Source: Muribaculaceae bacterium
Lineage (GTDB): Bacteria > Bacteroidota > Bacteroidia > Bacteroidales > Muribaculaceae
Reading direction: 5' to 3'
DNA: 64,000 bases
Assembly (NCBI GenBank): GCA_017935045.1
Contig: JAGBIJ010000045.1
Location: 24,269 to 88,268 of the forward strand
How positions within the stretch are numbered: the first letter of the stretch is position 1; each line of letters begins with the position of its first letter. The position numbers and the translations under genes were made by a program. The notes under the pieces are model-generated. The model saw nothing but the letters and a program-made list of their open reading frames with translations. It searched no databases and had not been told where the DNA came from. Below are positions 7,347 to 51,087 of this stretch, in pieces.

Positions 7347-8189
7347 ATGAGAATGATACGAGTCATATTGAGCATATTGTGTGTCATGGCGCTCCCCGTT
7401 GCCGTGTCCGGCCAGATAATCAAAGTAGAGCGTGAGAAAAGTTTTACGGATTCACTGCGTGAGGAATTTGACCGTGGCCCGTATTTCGGTCTGTACAGAG
7501 ACAATTATTTCATTGTCGGCACAGATCCCACGCATAAGCCTACCGCCAATAATTCTGACATAAAGTTTCAGGTCTCAATAGCCCAGAAGCTCACGAAATC
7601 CACACTGCCGGGCAAGACATATCTGTTTCTGACCTATACGCAGAATGTAGCCTGGGACGTATTCAAGCGTTCTATGCCGATGCACGATTTTACATTCAAT
7701 CCCGGCCTGGGTCTGGTCAAGCCCCTGTTCTCACGCGACCGGTTCATAGGCAAGGCCACGCTGCTGATAGAACACATGAGCAACGGACGCGACTCGATTC
7801 AGAGCCGCTCGTGGAACCGTATATCACTGGGCGCGTCGATATTGATAGATGAATTCGTATGTATCGACGGTAAATTCTGGATTCCTATAGTCGATGGAGA
7901 AAACAACCGGGATATCCTGGATTATGTCGGTCTGTTTCAGGGCGGTGTCAGTGTGATGAGCCACAACAGAAAGTTTGGCGGCTCGCTTCATTTCGTGAAG
8001 CGGCGCGGCTGGAACCTGAGCTGCAACACGATTCTGGAGCTGTATTGGCGTCCCTGGGAGCGCGCCAACCAATATTTCTTTCTGCAGTGGTATAACGGAT
8101 ATGGGGAAAATCTGCTGGATTACAACAAATTTCACAATCGTCTGAGGCTGGGTATCGTAATCAAGCCGCGTTTCTTCTCAGAGTTCTGA
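7347..8189 (+). CDS. pldA: outer membrane phospholipase A1 (OMPLA/PldA family)
   Basis: A calcium-dependent beta-barrel phospholipase of the outer membrane that removes phospholipids mislocalised to the outer leaflet. The family catalytic signature is intact: HMSNGRDS supplies the catalytic His and Ser, and SRSWNR supplies the Asn. The barrel ends in Phe, as expected for BAM-assembled proteins. I chose the ATG at 7347 because it begins a clean signal peptide (MRMIRVILSILCVMALP, then SGQ) and follows the promoter directly. An ATG 6 nt downstream is possible, and the open frame further upstream lies before the promoter. The product is 280 aa, close to the family length. The gene converges with the DAHP synthase gene, with a 6-bp gap between stops and no strong terminator. 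Confidence 0.9.
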   Translation: MRMIRVILSILCVMALPVAVSGQIIKVEREKSFTDSLREEFDRGPYFGLYRDNYFIVGTDPTHKPTANNSDIKFQVSIAQKLTKSTLPGKTYLFLTYTQNVAWDVFKRSMPMHDFTFNPGLGLVKPLFSRDRFIGKATLLIEHMSNGRDSIQSRSWNRISLGASILIDEFVCIDGKFWIPIVDGENNRDILDYVGLFQGGVSVMSHNRKFGGSLHFVKRRGWNLSCNTILELYWRPWERANQYFFLQWYNGYGENLLDYNKFHNRLRLGIVIKPRFFSEF

Positions 8190-8195
8190 CCCGAT

Positions 8196-8984
8196 TCATA
8201 CGGGTACGGCAATCGACTCCATAAGCCTGGCCAGAGCTTCGGGCGTGAGTTGCTGCGCCGCATCAGTCATGGCCTCCGCCGGGTTGCAGTGTGTCTCTAT
8301 GATAAGGCCGTCGTAGCCGCGCGACAAGGCTTCGCGGCTCAGTGGCGCGATGTGGCAACGCGCGCCGCCTATGTGCGAGGGGTCGCATAGCATAGGCAGT
8401 TCGGGCAGCTCGGCGCGGAATCTGTCGGCTACTTCCCAAAACGGTGTGTTGCGGTACGGCGGACAAGTGTCGTCTGGACGGATGAAGGTCTTGAAACCGC
8501 GCAATATGGCTCCCAGACGGCTCAGACCGCAGCGGGCGAACCGCTCGACTGCGCCTATCCACAGGTCGAGGTCGGCGCTCGCCGGATTCTTGACAAAGAC
8601 AGGTATGTCTGTACCCCGCAGAGCTTCGGCTATCTCCTGGGTAACGAACGGACAGGCCGTCGTGCGCGCGCCTATCCATACCACGTCTATTCCGGCGCGA
8701 AGGGCGAGCTCGGCATGTCTGGGTGTGCCTACCTCGGTTGCAGTAAGCATCCCGAACCGCTCCTTGACTTCGGCAAGCCAGGGCAGAGCCAGCTCTCCGT
8801 AACCCTCAAATCCGCCGGGACGCGTGCGCGGTTTCCACACGCCGGCGCGGAATATACGCACGCCTGCCCTATGCAGGGCGCCGGCAGTCGTCAGGACCTG
8901 TGTACGGGACTCGGCCGAGCAGGGACCGGCGATAATGAGGGGAGAGCCATCGGTATTCATTATATGTTTCATGTCGGAAATCAT
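8196..8984 (-). CDS. aroF: DAHP synthase (class I-beta, no chorismate mutase domain)
   Basis: 3-deoxy-7-phosphoheptulonate synthase, the first committed step of the shikimate pathway (PEP plus erythrose-4-phosphate), cytosolic. TIM-barrel motifs of the KDO8P/DAHP family are present: GPCSAES near the N-terminus, WKPRTRPGGFEG, WIGARTTACP, FVKNP and CDPSHIGG. At 262 aa it is a bare catalytic barrel. Many Bacteroidetes versions carry a C-terminal chorismate mutase domain, which is absent here. The start at 8984 overlaps the stop of the cytochrome c synthetase gene as ATGA, implying translational coupling. It is the last gene of the eight-gene minus-strand run. Its company with a chorismatase-like gene two positions upstream suggests a dedicated supply role (inference). 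ATG alternatives lie at 8972 and 8960. Confidence 0.88.
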   Translation of the reverse strand: MISDMKHIMNTDGSPLIIAGPCSAESRTQVLTTAGALHRAGVRIFRAGVWKPRTRPGGFEGYGELALPWLAEVKERFGMLTATEVGTPRHAELALRAGIDVVWIGARTTACPFVTQEIAEALRGTDIPVFVKNPASADLDLWIGAVERFARCGLSRLGAILRGFKTFIRPDDTCPPYRNTPFWEVADRFRAELPELPMLCDPSHIGGARCHIAPLSREALSRGYDGLIIETHCNPAEAMTDAAQQLTPEALARLMESIAVPV

Positions 8985-10858
8985 TGATAAGCGTGGAGAG
9001 AGGGAAGATAGTTTACTCCTATGTAAGTCATCAGTATCGAGGCGAAGGCAAGCAACATCAGAGCGCAGAACAGACGCGGGCGGGATGCCGGCGCCAGCGA
9101 CCGATGCAGCGGCAGAGCGTAGAGAAGCATTGTAACCAAAGCCCATGTCTCTTTAGGATCCCAAGCCCAATATCTCCCCCAGCTCTGCTCGGCCCATACG
9201 GCTCCGGTAAATATACCGAGTCCGAGCAGATAGACACCCGGCGCCAGCAGCCGCCGGGCCAGACCGAGCCACCGGTGCGCGGGCTTTATCAGACCGGCTA
9301 TCGCCAGCGGCATTGTAAAGGCAAGCATGGCATAGGCCGTCATCACAATGGAGACATGGATTGTGAGCCACGGCGATGCAAGCACCGGCATAAGCGGCGA
9401 CATTACCGGGTCTTTATAAGAAAGATATGCTACTAACGCTGTAAATCCGCTCATCAGCAGCCCTATGGCCGTAACTGCCGAATCGCGGCGCCCTATAAAC
9501 AGAGTCAGCAGCGCAATGGCTACTGAGAGAAACTGCATAATCTGCGGCGCCCCCGACAGGGACATGGAGCCGTTGACCCACCACGCCCAGATGTAGACTG
9601 CCGTGCCGGTGAGAGCTACTGTCACAGAGAGCGGCAACAAAAACCTCGGTATCCGCTTGCAGGCAAGCGCAATGGCTATGATGCCGCAGACAAGGCTGAG
9701 AATGAAGTACAGTCGCAGAGGCTGGATATGGTTGTACAGTACCTCGGCGCGGATGGAAGCCTGCGGACGCAAAGAGCCGGAATCAGACGGCAGAGGGGTA
9801 AAGAGCCGGCCTTCACATGCCTCGGCAAACAGCACTACCTTCTCGTCCAGGCGTAGTACGGCATCATCGAGCGGGCCGCTGCCTCCCTGATACAGAGCTG
9901 CGGGCCGGTATGCGCCCTCCTCATACAGCTCGACCGGAGAAATGTAGTGCGAGCGTATCCCAAGTGCATCGCGCAAAGGTTCGCTTTTAACGTATATGAA
10001 GCGCTCTTGACTCCATTCTGCCGGATAGAGTATGACGCTTGCGAGAAAACGCTCGGCGCTCAAGCCGGCTACCGAGGAGCTGCCGGTCAGTTTGAGAGTG
10101 AACTCGCGGGCGACGGTACTGTAGGGGACTATACGTCCGCGGAATTCCACCTGACAGGCCTCAAGCGCAGCAGCCGTAGAGTCCGGCACCGCCGGGGCGG
10201 CGGCGGCCGGAACGGCGGCAAGAAATATGGGCGCGAGCCAAAGCGCGGGGCGGAAGCGGCGCAATAGAAATATGAAGCCGGAGACTGCGAACAGTGCGTA
10301 GCCGCAGAACGAGAGAAGCGTACCCCAGAAATCGCTGCGTACGGTCAGTATGCTGCCACCTTTCCCGTCGAACGAGGTCTGATATAACCGGTAGCCCTGT
10401 ATGTCGGCCGGTCTGTTCATGGAAATTTCGATGGATTTTCCGTCCGACACCAGAAGAGAGCGGAAATCACGCGGTATCGTCATACCGGGATAATATTCGG
10501 TTCTGAACTCTTTCAGAGTCAGCCGGCACGGCAGCGGCAGGGTCTCTCCAGTGTCGGAGACGAATGTATCCATTGTTCGCCCCGGCGAGAGATGCAGGCT
10601 ACCGCTGACAGCCGTCAGGGCTGACGCGCCTCCTCCCGCAAGCATCAGCAGAAACGAGAGGTGGAGGGCAAACAGCAGCGGACGCCGCCACAGCCGCGAC
10701 ACCGCCATACCCCATAGCAGACCGGCGCCGACGACGCACCAGAACGCCAGCCACTGCCATGACGAATAGACGGAAGCAGGCATGAGCGACGTGGCGCCGA
10801 CAAACAAGGTCGCCGCCACGCATACGGTCAGAATTATCTTTCTGTCAGAACGCGGCAT
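8981..10858 (-). CDS. ccsBA: CcsBA-type System II cytochrome c synthetase
   Basis: A fused ResB/CcsB-CcsA membrane protein (625 aa) that exports heme and attaches it to CxxCH motifs in the periplasm. The N-terminal third has three hydrophobic segments and a ResB-like extracytoplasmic region, with a further TM near 185-205. The C-terminal part (about 385-615) is a multi-TM CcsA core with the heme-handling WWD-type motif as WGRYWAWDPKETW, and flanking histidines (IHVSIV, YALPLHRS). It overlaps the upstream Rid/chorismatase-like gene by 14 bp and the downstream DAHP synthase gene by 4 bp. Substrates in the same operon are obvious: a two-CxxCH lipoprotein and a one-CxxCH lipoprotein. No nrfHA genes are present, which is the more usual partner in this phylum. 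Confidence 0.9.
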   Translation of the reverse strand: MPRSDRKIILTVCVAATLFVGATSLMPASVYSSWQWLAFWCVVGAGLLWGMAVSRLWRRPLLFALHLSFLLMLAGGGASALTAVSGSLHLSPGRTMDTFVSDTGETLPLPCRLTLKEFRTEYYPGMTIPRDFRSLLVSDGKSIEISMNRPADIQGYRLYQTSFDGKGGSILTVRSDFWGTLLSFCGYALFAVSGFIFLLRRFRPALWLAPIFLAAVPAAAAPAVPDSTAAALEACQVEFRGRIVPYSTVAREFTLKLTGSSSVAGLSAERFLASVILYPAEWSQERFIYVKSEPLRDALGIRSHYISPVELYEEGAYRPAALYQGGSGPLDDAVLRLDEKVVLFAEACEGRLFTPLPSDSGSLRPQASIRAEVLYNHIQPLRLYFILSLVCGIIAIALACKRIPRFLLPLSVTVALTGTAVYIWAWWVNGSMSLSGAPQIMQFLSVAIALLTLFIGRRDSAVTAIGLLMSGFTALVAYLSYKDPVMSPLMPVLASPWLTIHVSIVMTAYAMLAFTMPLAIAGLIKPAHRWLGLARRLLAPGVYLLGLGIFTGAVWAEQSWGRYWAWDPKETWALVTMLLYALPLHRSLAPASRPRLFCALMLLAFASILMTYIGVNYLPSLHAYQ

Positions 10859-11951
10859 AGTCCGTCGTAAGTTTCTTGACAGCCATGCACTCCGTCTCTA
10901 TCAGCCAGCCGGGGCGGCATACAGGCGCGAGGGTAATGACACGCGGTGTGTCGGGGAAACGGGTGTCGAAGATGTCGCGTACGGCGGCATAATCCGCAGT
11001 GTCGCGCAGATAGACTATGAAGTGAGCCACATCGGCAGTCGTGCAGTCAGCTTCAGCAAGAAGAACGGAGATATTCTCCAGCATGCGCTCTGTCTGACCG
11101 AGGATATCGCCGGGATGCACTATCTCGCCCTTGTTGTCTATGCTCGCCGTACCTGATATGTAGACGTGGCGGCGGTCGGCATAGTCTACAGCCGTACCAC
11201 GCTCAAACGCCACACCGTATTCTATGGTCGGATTAAGATGCGTGGCTCCGTAGAGCAGACGCATCTGCCCCGGCTTCAGCGATGTGTCACAGACAGCATT
11301 GAAGCTTACAGACACTGCGGGATCCGGGTTGCGGCCTTCAATCCCTGTGGAGCTGATGAAGTGAGTGTCACGCGAGAGTCCGGCGCGGGCAAACATATCG
11401 TTGCGCCCGGACACTACTCCGGCATAATTCACGTCTACGTCACGTACGAAGAACCATGTCCGCAGGCAGTGGTCAAGCATTGTCGCCCCCCTTTGTCTCA
11501 GAATGGCATCAAGTTTGTCAAGATAGGCGGCTGTAAGGGCGTAAGCGGTATCGCCGCACGGCGGGGTGTCGCCCATCCATATCCGCCCGCGGGGGCTGCT
11601 ATATACTCCGGGCGCGGTACGGGTATAGTCGGCTTCGGCCTCCAATACAATCCATAAGGCCGCTTTGGCGCCGTCGAGGGGCGGCTGCTGCACGGCCGTT
11701 GACGCGCAATCGGCAACAGGGAGCGCCCCGGCCTGATTGGTGGCGTCACTGAGAAACCAACGCATGAAGACAGGCGCCATATCAAGGTCTGCCGCAAGTT
11801 TGCCGGCCATCTCGAGTATGCCTTCTATCTGCGCTGCGAACGGCAGCCGGACATCTTTGCAGCCGACTATGGCGTGGGCCTCCCTGCGACCCGTGTCGCA
11901 AAGCGCGAGGCGGGCGTGGCAACAGGATGTCTCTATATATCTGTAATCCAT
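10845..11951 (-). CDS. tandem Rid/YjgF-fold protein resembling chorismatases
   Basis: A 368-aa cytosolic protein. The C-terminal half is a clear Rid (YjgF/YER057c/UK114) domain (VYISGTASI, GDILGQTERMLENI, VYLRDTADY). The N-terminal half is a degenerate second copy. The layout, the linker motif LRTWFFVRDVDVNY and the YISGTAS block recall the chorismatase family (FkbO, Hyg5, XanB2), which hydrolyses or eliminates chorismate to aromatic or dihydro-aromatic acids. A plain Rid-family enamine/imine deaminase is the alternative. The start at 11951 follows the upstream stop by 4 bp; an in-frame upstream ATG would lie inside the neighbouring gene. Co-transcription with DAHP synthase supports a chorismate link. 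The catalytic assignment needs an alignment I cannot run. Confidence 0.6.
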   Translation of the reverse strand: MDYRYIETSCCHARLALCDTGRREAHAIVGCKDVRLPFAAQIEGILEMAGKLAADLDMAPVFMRWFLSDATNQAGALPVADCASTAVQQPPLDGAKAALWIVLEAEADYTRTAPGVYSSPRGRIWMGDTPPCGDTAYALTAAYLDKLDAILRQRGATMLDHCLRTWFFVRDVDVNYAGVVSGRNDMFARAGLSRDTHFISSTGIEGRNPDPAVSVSFNAVCDTSLKPGQMRLLYGATHLNPTIEYGVAFERGTAVDYADRRHVYISGTASIDNKGEIVHPGDILGQTERMLENISVLLAEADCTTADVAHFIVYLRDTADYAAVRDIFDTRFPDTPRVITLAPVCRPGWLIETECMAVKKLTTDYAAF

Positions 11952-11955
11952 AATA

Positions 11956-12657
11956 TCAATAGTTTGCGCCACTGTTGATCCAGTCGCGGACAAGATTGAG
12001 TTTGACATCGGACACCACTTCTACCGAATGATCATAACTCCACGAAGCCGATTCGGTCGAGGAGAGTATGCGGTACAATACGCTCTGAGAGGCATCGTCC
12101 GGACATACGCGCATACGGTCCGGCTCCTTGAGCGAAGTCACGCCTACAAGCTCGCGGAAACTTACCCCGTCGCCCAGATGGAGTGAGGCCGCGGCATGGG
12201 ACGACGCTCCGTGGCAGTTCACACAGGTGGTATTGAATATGTCATGCTGTATGGTGGCAGACATGGAGACATCCACATTGCCGGCATCGAGAGTAATATC
12301 GGATCCGGAACAAGAGCTGCTGGCAAAGCTGGCCACACGGCGCCGCAGACGGTCGATGACACACAGCTCCACGGTCGACACTTCTGCCGGGATACCTTCG
12401 AGAACCGCATCACAGCTCCCGTCGGAGTCCGGCCTTACATTCTTGCTGATAAGGGCGTAATCATTGCCATAGGCAAAACCGGCGAGAGCCAAGGTATATC
12501 CGTCGCTCCAGCCGTCGGCTCCGGATACGGAAGCGGTCAGACGGGCCGTAGCGCCCGTCTTGTCGGCTATGCCGCTGTCGTCGTATATGCGTCCTTCGTC
12601 GCACCCTGCGAGCATGACTGCCGCGAGAAGCGGACTGATTAAAAACCTGGTCTTCAT
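11956..12657 (-). CDS. mono-heme c-type cytochrome lipoprotein
   Basis: A 233-aa lipoprotein with a lipobox at MLAGC (Cys about 19), so anchored to a membrane outside the cytoplasm. The middle is a beta-rich domain of unknown type. The C-terminal third carries one heme site, CVNCH, followed by a short cytochrome-like fold reminiscent of planctomycete-type cytochrome domains (LHLGD, DWINSGA). It probably passes electrons to or from the di-heme partner (inference). The start codon shares one base with the porin stop (TGATG). It relies on the co-transcribed CcsBA for heme attachment. Confidence 0.75.
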   Translation of the reverse strand: MKTRFLISPLLAAVMLAGCDEGRIYDDSGIADKTGATARLTASVSGADGWSDGYTLALAGFAYGNDYALISKNVRPDSDGSCDAVLEGIPAEVSTVELCVIDRLRRRVASFASSSCSGSDITLDAGNVDVSMSATIQHDIFNTTCVNCHGASSHAAASLHLGDGVSFRELVGVTSLKEPDRMRVCPDDASQSVLYRILSSTESASWSYDHSVEVVSDVKLNLVRDWINSGANY

Positions 12658-13871
12658 CAGAACGTATATTGAGCCATTATGGTAACATTGCTTGTAGCCA
12701 GTCCGAGATTGTCCTCGTCGCGGTCCATCTGCCGGTCGTGGCCGGTGCGCCCCGTGTACTGATACATGCCTTGAAGTTTCAGATTGATTTTATCGAAGAA
12801 ATAGTTGACTCCGATCGCAGGCATATTGAGCAGGCCGCCCTTGCCGGAGGAATTGCGTTCGAATATGTCATAGCGCAGGGCGCCCTGCAGCTTCGGGGTA
12901 ATGAAGTAGCCGGCCTGCGCGTAGCCGCCGTAATAGTCATAGCTCTTGTCTATCTTCTGCCGCTTGGTAAAGCCAACGTGCATGTAGTAGAACTCGGCTC
13001 CGAAATACCAGCGGTCTTTAAGCCATGAAAACTCGGCTCCGAGGCGGAAATCGTTGGTACTCTCGTTCTCGCTCTCTACATTGAGCGAGCCGGAGATACC
13101 TACCAGCATCTTGTTGATCTTCAGGTCTCGCGGACTACCCTGAGAGGCGGGCATCACACCGAAAGGCTGCCACGTGAGACGCGCCGCATAGAGCAGCGAA
13201 GGGATGTGCCAGTCATCGGAAAAGGTCTTGGTCGCCATATTTATGTCAGCTCCGGTACCGTTGAAGATACCGACCTGGTACCCGAATTTCTTGGCGAACA
13301 TGCCGTGTACCTCCACGCCGAGATCAAATCCAGTGCCTATGTGCGGTGTCACGGCGTTGAGCGAATAGGGCAATATTACGGGGGCTGTAAGCGAGGTCGG
13401 CATTACGGGGAACAGAGTCTCGCCCAGCGTGGTAAGATATGCGTGTGAGAAAGGTGTCTTGAACTTGCCTATGCGTACGCCTATCGCTTCTTTGGGGCGA
13501 ATGTCGGCCCAGGCCTGCTGAAGTATCGCTCCTCCTTTGGCCGCCGCATTGATAGAGAGATTGAATGTCACGATTTTAAACGCTTTGCCGGTAAAGCCGA
13601 GTACAGCGTAAGGAATGGCGAATCCGCTGTTGGCTACATTGTCCTGATTGTAAGCGGGGTCGAGGCCGGCATCGTCATAGTAATTATAATTGGCCGACGC
13701 CTGTACGAGCAGGTAGGGCTTGAACAGGAAGTCGCCGCTCTTAGTTTCAAAGGTAAAACCCTTGTGTCCGGCCAGCGACACGACACCGTTTTCAGTATCG
13801 GCGTCATACTGGGCGAGAGCCGGAAAGACAGCTGTGAGGGAGAGAAGAAATATGGTAATCAGTTTTTTCAT
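12657..13871 (-). CDS. outer membrane porin, OprO/OprP-like (operon copy 2)
   Basis: A 404-aa beta-barrel with signal peptide (cleavage near ALAQYDA). Alternating aromatic strands, the RIGKFKTPFS segment and a C-terminal Phe (MAQYTF) match the OprO/OprP porin superfamily. The cargo is not evident. Because it sits between a di-heme oxidoreductase and a heme lipoprotein, it may admit the substrate of that redox pair (inference). It lies 30 bp downstream of the di-heme gene and is joined to the next gene by a TGATG overlap. Confidence 0.75.
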   Translation of the reverse strand: MKKLITIFLLSLTAVFPALAQYDADTENGVVSLAGHKGFTFETKSGDFLFKPYLLVQASANYNYYDDAGLDPAYNQDNVANSGFAIPYAVLGFTGKAFKIVTFNLSINAAAKGGAILQQAWADIRPKEAIGVRIGKFKTPFSHAYLTTLGETLFPVMPTSLTAPVILPYSLNAVTPHIGTGFDLGVEVHGMFAKKFGYQVGIFNGTGADINMATKTFSDDWHIPSLLYAARLTWQPFGVMPASQGSPRDLKINKMLVGISGSLNVESENESTNDFRLGAEFSWLKDRWYFGAEFYYMHVGFTKRQKIDKSYDYYGGYAQAGYFITPKLQGALRYDIFERNSSGKGGLLNMPAIGVNYFFDKINLKLQGMYQYTGRTGHDRQMDRDEDNLGLATSNVTIMAQYTF

Positions 13872-13901
13872 GTCTTGATGTTGATATGGTTGAGAAATAG
13901 A

Positions 13902-15332
13902 TCAGAGTGACTGTAGGAATTTTACAAGAGCGTTACGGTCGTCGCGGGGCATCTGCCTGAATTTGTTTTTAGAGGCTTCTCCTTCGCCTCCGTGCCACAT
14001 TATGGCTTCGACGAAATTGCGGGCACGGCCGTCATGCAGAAAGTAAGTGTGACCGTTGACCTTCTCCTGCAGTCCTATGCCCCAGAGCGGAGTGGTGCGC
14101 CACTCGTTGCCTCGGGCCAGGCCTGAGACATAGTTGTCATTGAGACCTACGCCCATTATCTCCGAGCCCATGTCGTGGAGCAGAAAATCCGAATATGGAT
14201 GTATGGTCTGGTTGCCCAGCCAGGGCAGCTGTGTGCCGGCCAGCAGCGTGGCACCGCGCGGACGCGTGTGGAGAGTCGTGACATGGCACAGATGACACCC
14301 GGCCTGATAAAACATCTGCTCGCCCCGCTTTACCTGCGGATCGTCGGTATTGCGGCGTGCCGGCACGCCGAGCGAGTGCATGTACAGGTCCACATTCTCC
14401 ATATCTTCGGTCGAGACATCGAGCTTGTCGTAGGCGAGTCCCATCATCGAGCCTTCAGTCATCTGCATCTGGCCCTCGCATATCTCTTCGGGATAGCGGC
14501 TGTTGGTCACGCCCATATCGGAAGAAAAGCCGAGTTCGACGGTCAGGTCGGCATGCTGCGCCTTGTTGCCGGAAAGGCCCAGGCAGAGTTTGCCGCGTTC
14601 GGTAACATAGTTGCAGCGGCCGGAGATACCCCATTCGGGATAGTTGCTCTGAGCGGCGAGACGCTCGATTTCCGCCGGGTCGAGAGCCATCATCTGTCCC
14701 ATGCCTACGTGGCGCAGAGGCACACGCACGGTGCAGAAGAGGTCTTCGGGAGCGATTTCATCGGCATACCAGTCGGTAATAGTGTATTGCGGATATGCCA
14801 GCTCGTAGGTGTCTCCGTCAGGAAATGAGAATGTCTGGTATTTCCAGTCGACCTTCAGTTTTCCTTCGGGCTTTACCCCATATATGGCCTGATCATGGAG
14901 GACACGGCCATATTGGCGGAAGAAGGCGCCGTTGTGGCGCGTGATATATATCAGCATTGCCGAAAAACCATAACTGCCCGAACCGCCGTCATTCCAGAGC
15001 CCGGGACGGGTGCGTCCGGCGTTGCGGTGGCAGCTGCCGCAAGAATAACCGGCATATACGGGGCCGAGGCCTCCGCCCTCGCCGGCAGCAGATGTGCGCA
15101 CATCGTCATAGAGACGGTCGCCTCTTACAAACCGCGTCAGATAATCGCCGGATACCCACGGCGCCTCGGAATCGTAAGCCACCGACGAGTTCAGGAATAT
15201 AGTGGAAGTGCCCGCCGACAATTCATAGCCGGCGGGAACCTCCACATCTATCATATCCAGGCCGTCGTCATCACACGCGGAGAGCAGCGGCGTAAGGATA
15301 AGGGTCAGAAAAAACTGTTTCGTGAGATTCAT
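13902..15332 (-). CDS. di-heme oxidoreductase lipoprotein (DHOR/DUF1111 family)
   Basis: A 476-aa lipoprotein (lipobox LLSAC) of the putative di-heme peroxidase or thiol-oxidoreductase family. Two heme c sites are visible: CGSCH near residue 100 and CHLCH near residue 345. The conserved family context is present around them (RTRPG, TTPLWGIG, YFLHDGRARN, AIMWHGGEGE). Members of this family are repeatedly found with imelysins in iron-responsive gene clusters, although their true substrate is unsettled. The start at 15332 shares a base with the imelysin stop (TGATG). A TTG one codon upstream is in frame but less likely. It needs the operon's CcsBA for maturation. Confidence 0.88.
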   Translation of the reverse strand: MNLTKQFFLTLILTPLLSACDDDGLDMIDVEVPAGYELSAGTSTIFLNSSVAYDSEAPWVSGDYLTRFVRGDRLYDDVRTSAAGEGGGLGPVYAGYSCGSCHRNAGRTRPGLWNDGGSGSYGFSAMLIYITRHNGAFFRQYGRVLHDQAIYGVKPEGKLKVDWKYQTFSFPDGDTYELAYPQYTITDWYADEIAPEDLFCTVRVPLRHVGMGQMMALDPAEIERLAAQSNYPEWGISGRCNYVTERGKLCLGLSGNKAQHADLTVELGFSSDMGVTNSRYPEEICEGQMQMTEGSMMGLAYDKLDVSTEDMENVDLYMHSLGVPARRNTDDPQVKRGEQMFYQAGCHLCHVTTLHTRPRGATLLAGTQLPWLGNQTIHPYSDFLLHDMGSEIMGVGLNDNYVSGLARGNEWRTTPLWGIGLQEKVNGHTYFLHDGRARNFVEAIMWHGGEGEASKNKFRQMPRDDRNALVKFLQSL

Positions 15333-16483
15333 CAATTCTGGGTTTTGCGGGGAACACCGTCCTTGAACAACAGGAATTCAAGGGTATGGAAACCACGTAC
15401 TGACTGTACGGCCTCTATCTTGTCGTCACCGTCGCCGTCAGTCCAGTTGAGATTGTCGTAATTGCCGGAGTTCAGAATCTGTACAATGGCATCCTGGTCA
15501 AGCGGCCAGCTGTCCATGTTGGGGTCGAGTCCGAGAGCGTCTACGGGACCGAACAGGAATGCCTCGCTCTTCTCCCAGGGCTGGCGGGCCTTGAGCCATG
15601 CGTCGCAGGCAGCTGCGAAATTGGCGTCGGAGGGGGCGGAATTGAATTTCACTACAGCATCGTAGAGAGCGGAATTGAGGTCGCGCAGCTCAGTGTAAGT
15701 GGGAATAACCACGGCATCCACGAAATTGTCGACTACGGCCTGCAGGCGGGTGTCATCGGCATTGAAGGCCATTACCGCGTTTTTAAGATCTTTCGACAGA
15801 ATCTCCTCAAGGTCTGCGCATGCAGTCATGGCAGCACGGGCCTCAGCGCTGTTGATATTGTTACGGAAGGGCTGGGGAATGGCCAGAATGACCTCTGCGG
15901 CTGTCGATATAGCCTCTTGCACACGCCGGTTCAAAGCGGGATTCCGGGCGGCTACCAGCGCGGACAGGGATTTGGGGCTTACTGTACCGTCGAGAGAACC
16001 ATAGTAGGAATTGCGGATAGAGTATATATTGTTGGTATAGTCTTCACGCGAATGCCAGCTGTACCATGACTCCACGGCGTAGAGGGCACGCTCTATCTCG
16101 CCGGAGATATACAGATGGTAGGGGTCGCCTATCTTGGCTGTGCCCACTTCGTTGGCTATGTCTGCGCAGCCGTCGATAATCTGCTCCACGCAGCTCAGAG
16201 CCGACGAGTAGTCTCCGCCCTTATGCTGCTTGAATTGCTCTGCGAACGATTCGCCGCCGTTGTAGGACACGGTCCAGTTGCTGTGCAGGTCTGCCGCGTC
16301 CTTTTTGAGCAGGGCGCCGACCTGTGTCATATAGTTACCCCAGGATTTGGCGTTTTTGGCAGTGTAGTCGATGGCGGCGCTGTCGGCCTCTCCGGGGCCG
16401 GGAGCGGGCTTAGGATCATCGTCGGAGCATGCCGCCAGAGTCAAGCCCATCAGGGCGTAGATGGATAAGTGTTTCAGTTTCAT
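15332..16483 (-). CDS. imelysin-family (M75) lipoprotein
   Basis: A 383-aa lipoprotein (lipobox TLAAC, then DDDPKPAPGPG linker) of the imelysin family, periplasmic helical-bundle proteins linked to iron or other metal uptake rather than to proteolysis. The hallmark GxHxxE motif is present as RGFHTLEF near the C-terminus, together with the family block RQPWEKSEAFLFGP. It is the second gene of the operon, directly upstream of the di-heme partner with which imelysins usually travel. Metal or heme binding is predicted from the family, and regulation by iron is expected but no Fur box was found. Confidence 0.88.
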   Translation of the reverse strand: MKLKHLSIYALMGLTLAACSDDDPKPAPGPGEADSAAIDYTAKNAKSWGNYMTQVGALLKKDAADLHSNWTVSYNGGESFAEQFKQHKGGDYSSALSCVEQIIDGCADIANEVGTAKIGDPYHLYISGEIERALYAVESWYSWHSREDYTNNIYSIRNSYYGSLDGTVSPKSLSALVAARNPALNRRVQEAISTAAEVILAIPQPFRNNINSAEARAAMTACADLEEILSKDLKNAVMAFNADDTRLQAVVDNFVDAVVIPTYTELRDLNSALYDAVVKFNSAPSDANFAAACDAWLKARQPWEKSEAFLFGPVDALGLDPNMDSWPLDQDAIVQILNSGNYDNLNWTDGDGDDKIEAVQSVRGFHTLEFLLFKDGVPRKTQN

Positions 16484-16513
16484 ATCGTTTTGTTTTATTG
16501 TTTTTGATTTATC

Positions 16514-17866
16514 TTATTTTTTCAGGAACCAGGCGATGTATGCCACTCCTATTGAAAACTCGTTTTCAGAATTATAGGGGCCTTTGCCGAACATGGATGC
16601 GGTGCCTAACTGCCGGGTGGTATAGTCGGCCTTGACCACAAGATTGGGAAGCGCGTACCAGTTCAGGCCGAATTGCCATTGGCTTGTCTCCAGGCGCTTG
16701 TCCATAGTCTGCTTGCCCTGGCCGCGGTACTGCGGATTATAGTATTCGTAACGGACGTAGGGATAGATTACCGGGCATTTGCGGGTGCCTGCGAGCGCGG
16801 CTATGTTTACCCCGACCTCAGCGCCATAGCTCAGGGCGTTTTTGGCTATAGGGACAAGACGCGAATAGGGGCTCTTGTTGGAGAGCATGCGGTTGGCCTC
16901 GGAGAGCGCCGCGGAATTGCCCACGTAGCCGTAAGTCACATTGGCGCGTGCCGTCACATATTTATTGCGATACTGGGCGTCCCAGGTGCCTATGGCCACC
17001 GGGATGCGTCCGATGGACTTGTATGTCTGCTCCTTGTCGGCATTGCTGCCTGCGTCACGGCAATAATAGAATGACACGCCGGTACGCAGGCCCGGCACGC
17101 CGGTGTAGTCAACGCGGGCCACGTAGCCGGGAGAGGTAAAGTTGTCTGTCTCAAAATATCCGGCCTTTCCGCCGATAATCCACTCGTTGCGGTCGAAGCC
17201 GTTGGCATTGAGACCGGCCACTACCATCAGCTGATAGTCGAATCGGGTATAGTCGCGGCCGAAGGATCCGAACAGCTCGATACCTGTCTCGTGCCATGTG
17301 GAGGGCAGCAGAGCCGTCTCGGCCTGCCGACGCTGTGTGCCGAAGAAATTGATGGGTTCGTGGTGGGCGTTCGTCAGTCCGACCGGCACTATCAGATGAC
17401 CTGCGCGGACGTTGATCTGCGGTATGATGAGGCGAGTGATATGGAATTGCTCCAGCGCTACCTCGCCACCTTTTTCTATCTCAGTCTCGTATTCTCCGTT
17501 TTCGCTGTTTTCAATCTCTACGGCGCTGCCTACGCCGCCTGCCTCAAACTCAATCTCTGCGCCAAGTATCCACTTGGGATTGAATTTGTAATCGAAGGCC
17601 AGGACGAAGCGGGGTATCTCTATCTTGTTGCGGTGGGTGCGCGTGTTGCCCGAGGAGACTCCGGCAAACCGGTTGATGCCGTAATCCATGAAAGAGGCGC
17701 GCATCTCTCCGTATCCACCGAAGCGAAATTTGTTATAACCGGCTGTATCAGCCTGAGTAGCCGGCAGCTGGTGTCGGTCTGAAGTCGTCTGCTGAGCGGA
17801 TGCCGCCGCGCCGCCTCCGGCCAGGGAGACGGCTGCGCACATCGCTATCTTCAAAATCAAATTCAT
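16514..17866 (-). CDS. outer membrane porin, OprO/OprP-like (operon copy 1)
   Basis: A 450-aa beta-barrel with signal peptide (cleavage near ASAQQ). Features of phosphate-selective-type porins include NPKWILGAEIEFEAGG, RAGHLIVPVG with a following NxxHEPINFFG loop, and a barrel repeat pattern to the end (VAYIAWFLKK). It is the first gene of the minus-strand operon, 30 bp ahead of the imelysin gene. Two different porins in one operon is unusual and suggests separate entry routes for two solutes or a solute and a carrier (inference). Its 5' leader contains the inverted-repeat element described separately. Confidence 0.78.
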   Translation of the reverse strand: MNLILKIAMCAAVSLAGGGAAASAQQTTSDRHQLPATQADTAGYNKFRFGGYGEMRASFMDYGINRFAGVSSGNTRTHRNKIEIPRFVLAFDYKFNPKWILGAEIEFEAGGVGSAVEIENSENGEYETEIEKGGEVALEQFHITRLIIPQINVRAGHLIVPVGLTNAHHEPINFFGTQRRQAETALLPSTWHETGIELFGSFGRDYTRFDYQLMVVAGLNANGFDRNEWIIGGKAGYFETDNFTSPGYVARVDYTGVPGLRTGVSFYYCRDAGSNADKEQTYKSIGRIPVAIGTWDAQYRNKYVTARANVTYGYVGNSAALSEANRMLSNKSPYSRLVPIAKNALSYGAEVGVNIAALAGTRKCPVIYPYVRYEYYNPQYRGQGKQTMDKRLETSQWQFGLNWYALPNLVVKADYTTRQLGTASMFGKGPYNSENEFSIGVAYIAWFLKK

Positions 17867-17884: not shown

Positions 17885-18206
17885 AGAGGCTGTTTAATAA
17901 CAAATGTGAATTATGGGGCGGCGGATTTTCAGGCAGAATCCGGTTAAGTCGATGGAGCATAGCGGGCTATGCGACTGAGACGCGGCCGGATTCTGACGAA
18001 AATCCGGCGGACATTGCAAATTATCCTTATTTTTTATCATTGTGTGTAAAATTATTCAACTAAGTTATTATTGCGCGGTCTCGAAATCGCAAATGTATTT
18101 TGCCCTTTGTCTCAGTCGCATAGCCCGCTATGCTCCTTCGTCTGCATGACAAAATCCAAGTTGCGATTTCGACCCCATAATTCACATTTGTTATTAAACA
18201 GCCTCT
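17885..18206. mobile_element. 322-bp non-coding inverted-repeat (MITE-like) element
   Basis: Perfect 34-bp terminal inverted repeats lie at 17885-17918 and 18173-18206 (ends AGAGGCTGTTTAATAAC). Counted from GAGG, the element is flanked by TTA on both sides (17883-17885 and 18206-18208), consistent with a 3-bp target duplication. Inside are two arms. Arm 1 (17922-18008) folds on itself. Arm 2 (18081-18172) has a 12-bp closing stem (18081-18092 with 18161-18172). The arms share a 28-bp inverted copy (17954-17981 and 18109-18136), each holding a GCATAGC/GCTATGC hairpin. There is no coding capacity. TNA target duplications occur in the IS1031 group of IS5, so it may be an IS5-related MITE (inference). 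Confidence 0.8.
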
Positions 18207-18218
18207 TAGTTTCCGGGT

Positions 18219-18227
18219 GCAAAATTA
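18219..18227 (-). promoter_or_regulatory. -7 element of the porin-imelysin-cytochrome operon
   Basis: TAATTTTGC reads on the minus strand, with a weak TTTC about 20 bp upstream. It is the only good -7 box upstream of the operon. The inverted-repeat element lies between it and the first ATG at 17866, giving a leader of roughly 345 nt. Confidence 0.6.
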
Positions 18228-18282
18228 CTATGCGGCCGGAAAGTGGGAAATACCTTAAAAAAAGTAAAAATACAGGGACGAA

Positions 18283-50993: not shown

Positions 50994-51023
50994 AACCGGC
51001 AGCCGAAGCGAAGCCGGGGAGAC

Positions 51024-51078
51024 GTGCAGTTTTAGCATTTTTTAGAGTGGTTGCAAGCAGCCAAATTTTTCCACCAAT
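51024..51078 (-). ncRNA. SAM-II-like riboswitch aptamer in the metK leader
   Basis: On the minus strand a P1 stem GGUGG/CCACU encloses a loop AUUUGGCUGCUUGCA. It is followed by an A-rich stretch and UGCUAAAA, then CUGC. This mirrors the SAM-II (metA) pseudoknot: AUUU, UUGCA at the 3' side of the loop, and the conserved GCUAAA downstream, with GCUG/CUGC as a possible second stem containing a U-U mismatch. It lies just after a -7 box (51088-51096) and about 100 nt before metK. The assignment is by eye. Confidence 0.6.
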
Positions 51079-51087
51079 TTTGTGAGT

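Follow-up and report, generated by a model that had tools for sequence, protein, structure and literature searches.

In a 64,000-nucleotide stretch of DNA from a Muribaculaceae bacterium (GenBank assembly GCA_017935045.1, contig JAGBIJ010000045.1; the whole stretch is called the window here), we identified eight minus-strand genes within positions 8196-17866 that join a circularly permuted imelysin and a di-haem DUF1111 lipoprotein to a chorismatase-like protein. Our data show that the order of the first seven of these genes is conserved beyond chance across Bacteroidales, and that homologues of the chorismatase-like protein (Rid) occur in every surveyed genome with a permuted imelysin. We tentatively propose, with a little less than even confidence, that the genes form an iron-starvation-induced envelope iron-acquisition operon of Bacteroidales, centred on the permuted imelysin and its di-haem DUF1111 companion and equipped with a metabolic arm of its own.

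A conserved gene order pairs a permuted imelysin with Rid

The eight genes, in order, are POR1, IME, DHOR, POR2, MONO, RID, CCS and DAHPS, with signed gaps of 30, -1, 30, -1, 4, -14 and 8 nt between them, and a Pfam search recognized a family for seven of the eight, the exception being MONO. A sequence-only reading of this DNA had described eight same-strand genes separated by 30 nt or less, which is borne out; it had also stated that most of the junctions overlap, which is true of only three of the seven, the remainder being gaps of 30 nt or less. The host genome (G000) spans 2.22 Mb in 62 contigs and is 89.9% complete.

We surveyed 297 genomes of the same family as the window, its own included, and found Rid homologues in 62 of them, with 40-62% identity to the window protein (the window itself excepted). 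For gene context we took 56 of the 62 places listed besides the window and added 80 loci from public genomes, giving 136 loci; the public genomes yielded 559 confirmed relatives, of which the best 80 were kept, and the context counts cover that part. Muribaculaceae, Porphyromonadaceae, Bacteroides and Prevotella are among the relatives found with Rid. A phylum-wide Rid search matched 8 of 395 genomes, our own included. We called a locus operon type when a MONO gene precedes Rid in the same orientation, which applies to 79 of the 136 loci, with B. finegoldii, B. muris and Prevotella among the holders. All seven genes stand in the order POR1-IME-DHOR-POR2-MONO-RID-CCS in 64 of these 79, five have the first six genes without a recognized CCS (Alistipes and Parabacteroides loci lack it), and ten are partial. 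Eight of the partial loci run into a contig end, and the other two (L079 and L146) are broken by an overlapping or masked frame; POR1 of the B. faecalis locus was read as two frames, and the B. cellulosilyticus locus has a masked stretch. When identical Rid sequences are collapsed, 125 distinct loci remain, 70 of them operon type (56 complete, five without CCS, nine partial). We regard the seven-gene order as more than chance, because it is kept in 56 of 70 distinct loci although the Rid proteins are only 40-62% identical to that of the window. The sequence-only reading had named as refuting outcomes a gene order confined to one strain, or unrelated neighbours in related genomes; neither is seen for this seven-gene core, but such outcomes do occur in part for DAHPS and for copies of Rid found elsewhere.

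This locus set was seeded with the Rid protein and is biased accordingly; a count seeded with imelysin is free of that bias. The window imelysin, IME (15332-16483, minus strand), is a lipoprotein that matches PF09375 with 187 bits in two swapped segments, carries GxHxxE near its C terminus, and matches Bacteroides ovatus PIBO (3n8u, E = 2e-143), which places it with the PIBO-type permuted imelysins. GxHxxE is present in 75 of 75 operon imelysin homologues. PF09375 matches occur in 96 of the 297 genomes: 35 permuted (our own included), 59 canonical and full-length, and two neither, with the swapped segment order visible in alignment coordinates in 35 of 35 permuted-imelysin genomes. Rid is present in 35 of 35 genomes with a permuted imelysin, in 9 of 59 with a canonical one, and in 18 of 201 without imelysin. 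Since Rid is found in every permuted-imelysin genome and few canonical ones, we assign it to the permuted-imelysin system and not to imelysins generally.

We also considered Rid as a partner of imelysins generally. An initial weak sign came from 16 Rid-positive genomes judged to lack a Rid-CcsBA neighbourhood (five of them from contig numbers only), 8 of which have imelysin versus 52 of 235 Rid-negative genomes (p = 0.028). The direct comparison of canonical-imelysin with imelysin-free genomes gave no significant Rid excess (p = 0.22), so we rejected the general partnership and limit our claim to the permuted system. These and all other Fisher tests on genome co-occurrence carry no correction for genome relatedness.

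A four-gene POR1-canonical imelysin-DHOR-CcsBA operon without Rid is present in 17 of 20 chosen Rid-negative genomes (L187-L193, L195-L200, L203-L206), which were hand-picked from the 63 Rid-negative genomes with ResB. Its genes are a core in common with the window operon, but it has no POR2, mono-haem protein or Rid; 9 of 59 canonical-imelysin genomes have Rid at some place in the genome.

RID has the fold and signature residues of Hyg5-type chorismatases

RID (10845-11951, minus strand) is a 368-residue protein without an apparent signal peptide, its start taken as the ATG at 11951 in an open frame that reaches 12008. We predicted its structure with AlphaFold2 from 43 sequences, at a mean predicted local distance difference test score (pLDDT) of 95.2 and a predicted TM-score of 0.93. 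In a Foldseek search with this model, places 1-7 are FkbO/Hyg5 chorismatases (E = 5e-18 to 9e-17, TMq 0.63-0.69), and the two-domain chorismatase fold extends over the full length of RID.

In Nat-hyg5, the residues Gly164, Gly231 and Cys318 are described as marks of the CH-Hyg5 subfamily, and Glu325 as the counterpart of the Hyg5 active-site Glu334, in the passages of PMC7170507 that deal with them. This offset of nine puts the Hyg5 marks at G173, G240 and C327. A profile alignment to 5ag3 aligns Hyg5 G173/G240/C327/E334 with G203/G267/C345/E352 of RID, counted from ATG 11951 (G221/G285/C363/E370 in the numbering of a 50-row alignment). All four residues, the catalytic glutamate and the CH-II glycines and cysteine, are invariant in 50 of 50 rows of that alignment, and a second set that shares some of its members gives the same result in 43 of 43; the Hyg5 residues kept are the TGI glycine, the SGTAS glycine and the cysteine, and in FkbO the second and third signature sites are alanine. 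The signature predicts that RID is a 3-hydroxybenzoate-type (Hyg5-type) chorismatase. RID thus resembles the Hyg5/FkbO chorismatases (5ag3, 5a3k, 4bps) in fold and in the four signature residues, but it is only 17-21% identical to them, and no polyketide or pigment genes are found among the eight. Because its score lies below the TIGR04444 cutoff, we file RID as chorismatase-like, outside the curated subfamily.

An apparent counterpart locus is induced by iron starvation

In B. thetaiotaomicron, BT2473-BT2482 are upregulated 62.7-323.7-fold in iron starvation (69.4-323.7 in the text of that paper) and are also up in colitis, and their products are listed as CcsA, a hypothetical protein, a porin, a thiol oxidoreductase, peptidase M75 and a hypothetical protein (PMC10434189). 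The product list and order fit the window operon, and we consider this locus its apparent counterpart on those grounds; the assignment also used B. finegoldii locus L165, in which a frame read as fimbrillin-like follows CCS. The main text of PMC10434189 contains chorismate and shikimate 0 times, and its passages on the locus do not name a chorismatase.

The same paper reports that an unfused haemerythrin/regulator pair, BT0519-BT0520, is up 16-20-fold without iron, and describes a fused CdhR-type haemerythrin regulator in P. intermedia (PMC10434189). We identified by Pfam a fused haemerythrin-LuxR protein, resembling the P. intermedia form in its make-up, at 28 of 79 operon-type loci versus 5 of 57 others (25 of 70 versus 5 of 55 distinct loci). 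In 21 of 79 loci (18 of 70 distinct) its gene sits upstream of POR1 in divergent orientation, within 100-250 nt in 19 of the 21. Genes for flavodoxin or DUF2023, which PMC10434189 likewise describes as strongly iron-induced, lie near 5 of the 79.

Imelysins have been linked to DUF1111 peroxidases and iron uptake, and ferric ion is reported to have no significant effect on PIBO (both from the relevant parts of PMC3143127). Of the two functions that the sequence-only reading had offered for the operon, envelope redox or metal uptake, the second is upheld by the conserved order, the PIBO-type imelysin, the strong response of the apparent counterpart to iron starvation, and the divergent haemerythrin-LuxR gene in 18 of 70 distinct loci, and the operon is best read as one for iron acquisition. 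The system treated in the PIBO/IrpA paper shares with it a permuted imelysin with GxHxxE, a lipoprotein and a DUF1111 neighbour; the window operon adds POR2, a mono-haem lipoprotein, the chorismatase-like protein, CcsBA and, here, DAHPS, and the words 'porin', 'endoribonuclease' and 'cytochrome c' appear 0 times in the main text of PMC3143127. With the EfeUOB iron transporter it has in common a pairing of an imelysin-like and a peroxidase-like protein, but there is no EfeU permease among the eight genes, which encode lipoproteins and barrels instead. Searches with Pfam and NCBIfam models found no non-ribosomal peptide synthetase, no synthetase of the non-ribosomal-peptide-synthetase-independent siderophore type and no aryl-adenylating enzyme among the eight, so the operon does not qualify as a siderophore cluster.

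CcsBA, DAHP synthase and possible alternative roles for RID

CCS (8981-10858, minus strand) is a fusion of ResB (PF05140) and CcsA (PF01578) domains of the CcsBA cytochrome c synthase type, and is the only ResB match that we found in the host genome. The WWD motif, which we take to be a mark of CcsBA, is present in 67 of 74 CCS homologues; against the curated CcsB model TIGR03144 the protein scores 125.7, below the cutoff of 187.6.

An alternative is that RID, as a partner of CcsBA, serves c-type cytochromes or haem attachment and not iron chelation, its product or activity being needed by a class of haem lipoproteins. Outside the operon, a same-strand CcsBA gene lies within five genes of Rid in 17 distinct loci, and 14 distinct loci place Rid near PD40-haem/DUF6057 genes. 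In these cytochrome clusters, a CxNCH mono-haem PD40 lipoprotein and a DUF6057 membrane protein recur as a pair around Rid (L082, L083, L127, L133, L140, L163 and others). At L084:1725-6050, Rid and CcsBA lie beside a hydrazine-synthase-alpha-like (HZS_alpha-like) and a MauG/CCP-like di-haem protein, a haem pair that likewise favours a role in haem attachment. ResB is found in 54 of 62 Rid-positive versus 63 of 235 Rid-negative genomes (p = 3e-18), with a CcsA match in seven of the other eight Rid-positive genomes (the CcsA family was tried on Rid-positive genomes only). In the 20 chosen ResB-positive, Rid-negative genomes, however, the CcsBA gene lies in the canonical imelysin-DHOR operon in 17 and has multi-haem (Nrf-like) neighbours in three, which shows that CcsBA and di-haem proteins do without Rid in some genomes. 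We rejected Rid as an obligate CcsBA partner on those 17 genomes, and consider the broader haem-attachment role fairly unlikely. Three loci (L107, L154 and L172) place Rid beside canonical imelysin-DHOR genes, and the remaining non-operon Rid loci have varied neighbours, some on short contigs. Taken with the other non-operon contexts, they leave room for a wider link between Rid and haem lipoproteins.

DAHPS (8196-8972, minus strand) encodes a single-domain DAHP (3-deoxy-D-arabino-heptulosonate 7-phosphate) synthase that matches PF00793 above cutoff with 117.7 bits and scores below the cutoffs of the NCBIfam DAHP synthase models. It has the KPRT and metal-ligand motifs that we assume to mark type I enzymes, and its closest relatives in the Protein Data Bank are 4c1l, 4c1k and 1zco. 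Elsewhere the host genome also has a fused DAHPS-chorismate mutase (G000:C14, L034) and a further aldolase that we read as a KDO8P synthase. A second DAHPS, defined by two matches at E = 1e-45 or better, is present in 11 of the 297 genomes. Ten of the 11 are Rid-positive and carry the copy beside the operon, seven after CCS (the window counted) and three divergently upstream; the eleventh, in a Rid-negative genome, follows a CcsBA gene at a contig end. The second copy is thus found in 10 of 62 Rid-positive versus 1 of 235 Rid-negative genomes (p = 8e-7). DAHPS is a lineage-specific supplement that tracks the operon, not part of its conserved core, and the linkage is what extra demand for chorismate would select.

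The operon could instead be an ordinary one for iron that Rid and DAHPS have joined as hitch-hikers, with Rid feeding general metabolism and DAHPS replacing a feedback-sensitive supply in one lineage. Only 10 of 70 distinct operon loci have DAHPS as a neighbour (seven after CCS, three divergent; the window not counted), and the fused enzyme elsewhere in the host genome is in keeping with such an arrangement. Against it stand the 35-of-35 pairing of Rid with permuted imelysin and the position of all 11 second DAHPS copies beside the operon or a CcsBA gene, and we judge it quite unlikely.

Least probable, and in our view very unlikely, is that RID works as an enamine/imine deaminase in the manner of RidA, or as some other repair enzyme, and resembles chorismatases through ancestry only: its sole Pfam match is Ribonuc_L-PSP, the RutC and TIGR00004 (Rid) models outscore TIGR04444 with all three below their cutoffs, and the Arg and Glu of its C-terminal motif may also occur in RidA, but RidA structures align with the model over 130-143 columns versus 331-386 for chorismatases, the Hyg5 glycines and cysteine are invariant, and a DAHP synthase is linked to Rid. 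Nor is RID a single RidA/YjgF domain of about 130 residues, as matches to RidA sequences are confined to roughly the last 100 of its 368 residues.

Envelope components and the region around the operon

POR1 (16514-17866, minus strand; 450 residues) is a predicted outer-membrane beta-barrel and POR2 (12657-13871, minus strand) a Porin_O_P barrel (PF07396, 170 bits). The claim of two porins holds by family match for POR2, while for POR1 the label comes from a sub-threshold Porin_O_P score (17 versus 20.9) together with an AlphaFold2 model that is a barrel (pLDDT 82.8) and that Foldseek matches to solved porins. Fifteen POR1 glutamates are invariant in 34 of 34 aligned rows, several in alternating E-x-E-x-E runs. 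Eleven of the 15 fall between residues 104 and 139, E104/106/108 and E125/127/129/131 included. These eleven sites are acidic in 25 of 25 POR1 homologues from a second set of loci, and they are conserved in the eight-gene and four-gene imelysin operons alike. The glutamates would suit a cation path and make POR1 a candidate for a barrel dedicated to cations or iron. In the model, E104/106/108 are part of a predicted strand; residues 111-122 and 125-133 have low confidence, with pLDDT below 50, so the glutamates may or may not line the pore.

DHOR, the di-haem DUF1111 lipoprotein (13902-15332, minus strand; PF06537, 210 bits), contains CGSCH and CHLCH, and the mono-haem lipoprotein MONO (11956-12657, minus strand) contains CVNCH, exactly the haem motifs described for this DNA earlier. 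Two CxxCH motifs are present in 76 of 77 DHOR homologues from the operon and one in 80 of 80 MONO homologues. At least two of the five residues after the lipid cysteine are acidic in 57 of 69 imelysin, 56 of 67 DHOR and 64 of 65 MONO sequences with a detected lipobox (drawn from 75, 77 and 80 sequences respectively, duplicates counted). If such acidic residues are a surface-export signal, as we assume, the three lipoproteins are probably at the outer membrane and face outward.

Upstream of POR1, a promoter-like TTTG-N19-TAnnTTTG site at 18220-18250 on the minus strand matches, with one mismatch, what we take to be the Bacteroidetes-type consensus; it is a consensus match only, in a window with six matches versus 1.91 expected by chance. 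A scan for a sigma-70 promoter upstream of the operon gave one match versus 1.2 expected and was not used. Between the promoter-like site and POR1 is a repeat like a miniature inverted-repeat transposable element (17885-18206, minus strand), 18 nt ahead of the POR1 start. Its inverted ends match perfectly over 34 nt, and it has a further, inner pair of 35 nt. It matches at least 77 places in the host genome, 15 of them at least 285 nt long (the window copy counted), and may have inserted between the promoter-like site and the operon. On the plus strand, a convergent phospholipase A1-family gene (PF02253, 146 bits) at 7350-8189 lies 6 nt from the end of DAHPS, and a SAM-II riboswitch (61.8 bits) is found at 51022-51080 on the minus strand.

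Proposed mechanism and implications

In our proposed mechanism, iron starvation would turn on the operon, and CcsBA would attach haem to the two haem lipoproteins, DHOR and MONO. Imelysin, DHOR and the acidic POR1 cation channel would then handle iron at the outer membrane. In the metabolic arm, RID would split chorismate into pyruvate and an aromatic, 3-hydroxybenzoate or a related compound, with the unfused DAHPS raising chorismate supply. The aromatic would leave the cell and diffuse, and as a reductant, ligand or electron carrier it would assist the haem/imelysin complex in releasing and taking up iron; the role of the exported aromatic is the least certain step of the mechanism. The Rid pairing, the chorismatase signature and the linked DAHPS suggest synthesis of an aromatic from chorismate under iron starvation. 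A further and more doubtful possibility is that gut Bacteroidales answer iron starvation with a dedicated aromatic made from chorismate (3-hydroxybenzoate or a relative), which would serve haem-imelysin complexes at the outer membrane by diffusing as a reductant or by shuttling electrons or iron, a small-molecule way of acquiring iron without siderophores. The sequence-only reading had proposed that the transcript boosts synthesis of an aromatic compound, perhaps a reductant or chelator; the enzymes for this are now backed by fold, signature and the linked second DAHPS, while the compound and its role we can only infer.

Several observations weigh against this proposal. 3-hydroxybenzoate alone is not a strong iron chelator, and with Pfam and NCBIfam models we found among the eight genes no adenylating enzyme, hydroxylase or exporter, nor any gene that would turn it into a strong chelator. 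RID scores 42.5 against TIGR04444, whose cutoff is 325. Rid stands without the operon in 55 of 125 distinct loci, including the 14 near PD40-haem/DUF6057 genes, and 18 of 62 Rid-positive genomes have no imelysin match. The small share of operon loci that DAHPS adjoins counts here too, and in the host genome the haemerythrin-LuxR regulator does not adjoin the operon, the best match lying on another contig. The passages of PMC3949708 on the subject also hold that the reaction of a chorismatase is not accurately predictable from alignment alone.

Both the iron-responsive locus and the partnership of imelysin with DUF1111 were known before. In searches of an open-access library for chorismatases in Bacteroides or in iron uptake, for this locus and for imelysin operons, we found no description of the operon's chorismatase-like gene or linked DAHPS. 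Host-associated Bacteroidota are reported not to produce siderophores (PMC13227078, in the part concerned with them), and given that reported lack in gut Bacteroidales, it is unexpected that an operon apparently used when iron is scarce should carry an enzyme that looks capable of making a small aromatic compound. The apparent counterpart locus is described as highly upregulated in iron depletion and colitis, and no mechanism for it came to light in the passages of PMC10434189 that treat it. If the invariant chorismatase-like enzyme works as such, dominant gut bacteria would make an aromatic metabolite within their iron-starvation response. If true, this would give a single-gene entry into the workings of the imelysin/DUF1111 system and into what Bacteroidales release in the inflamed gut.

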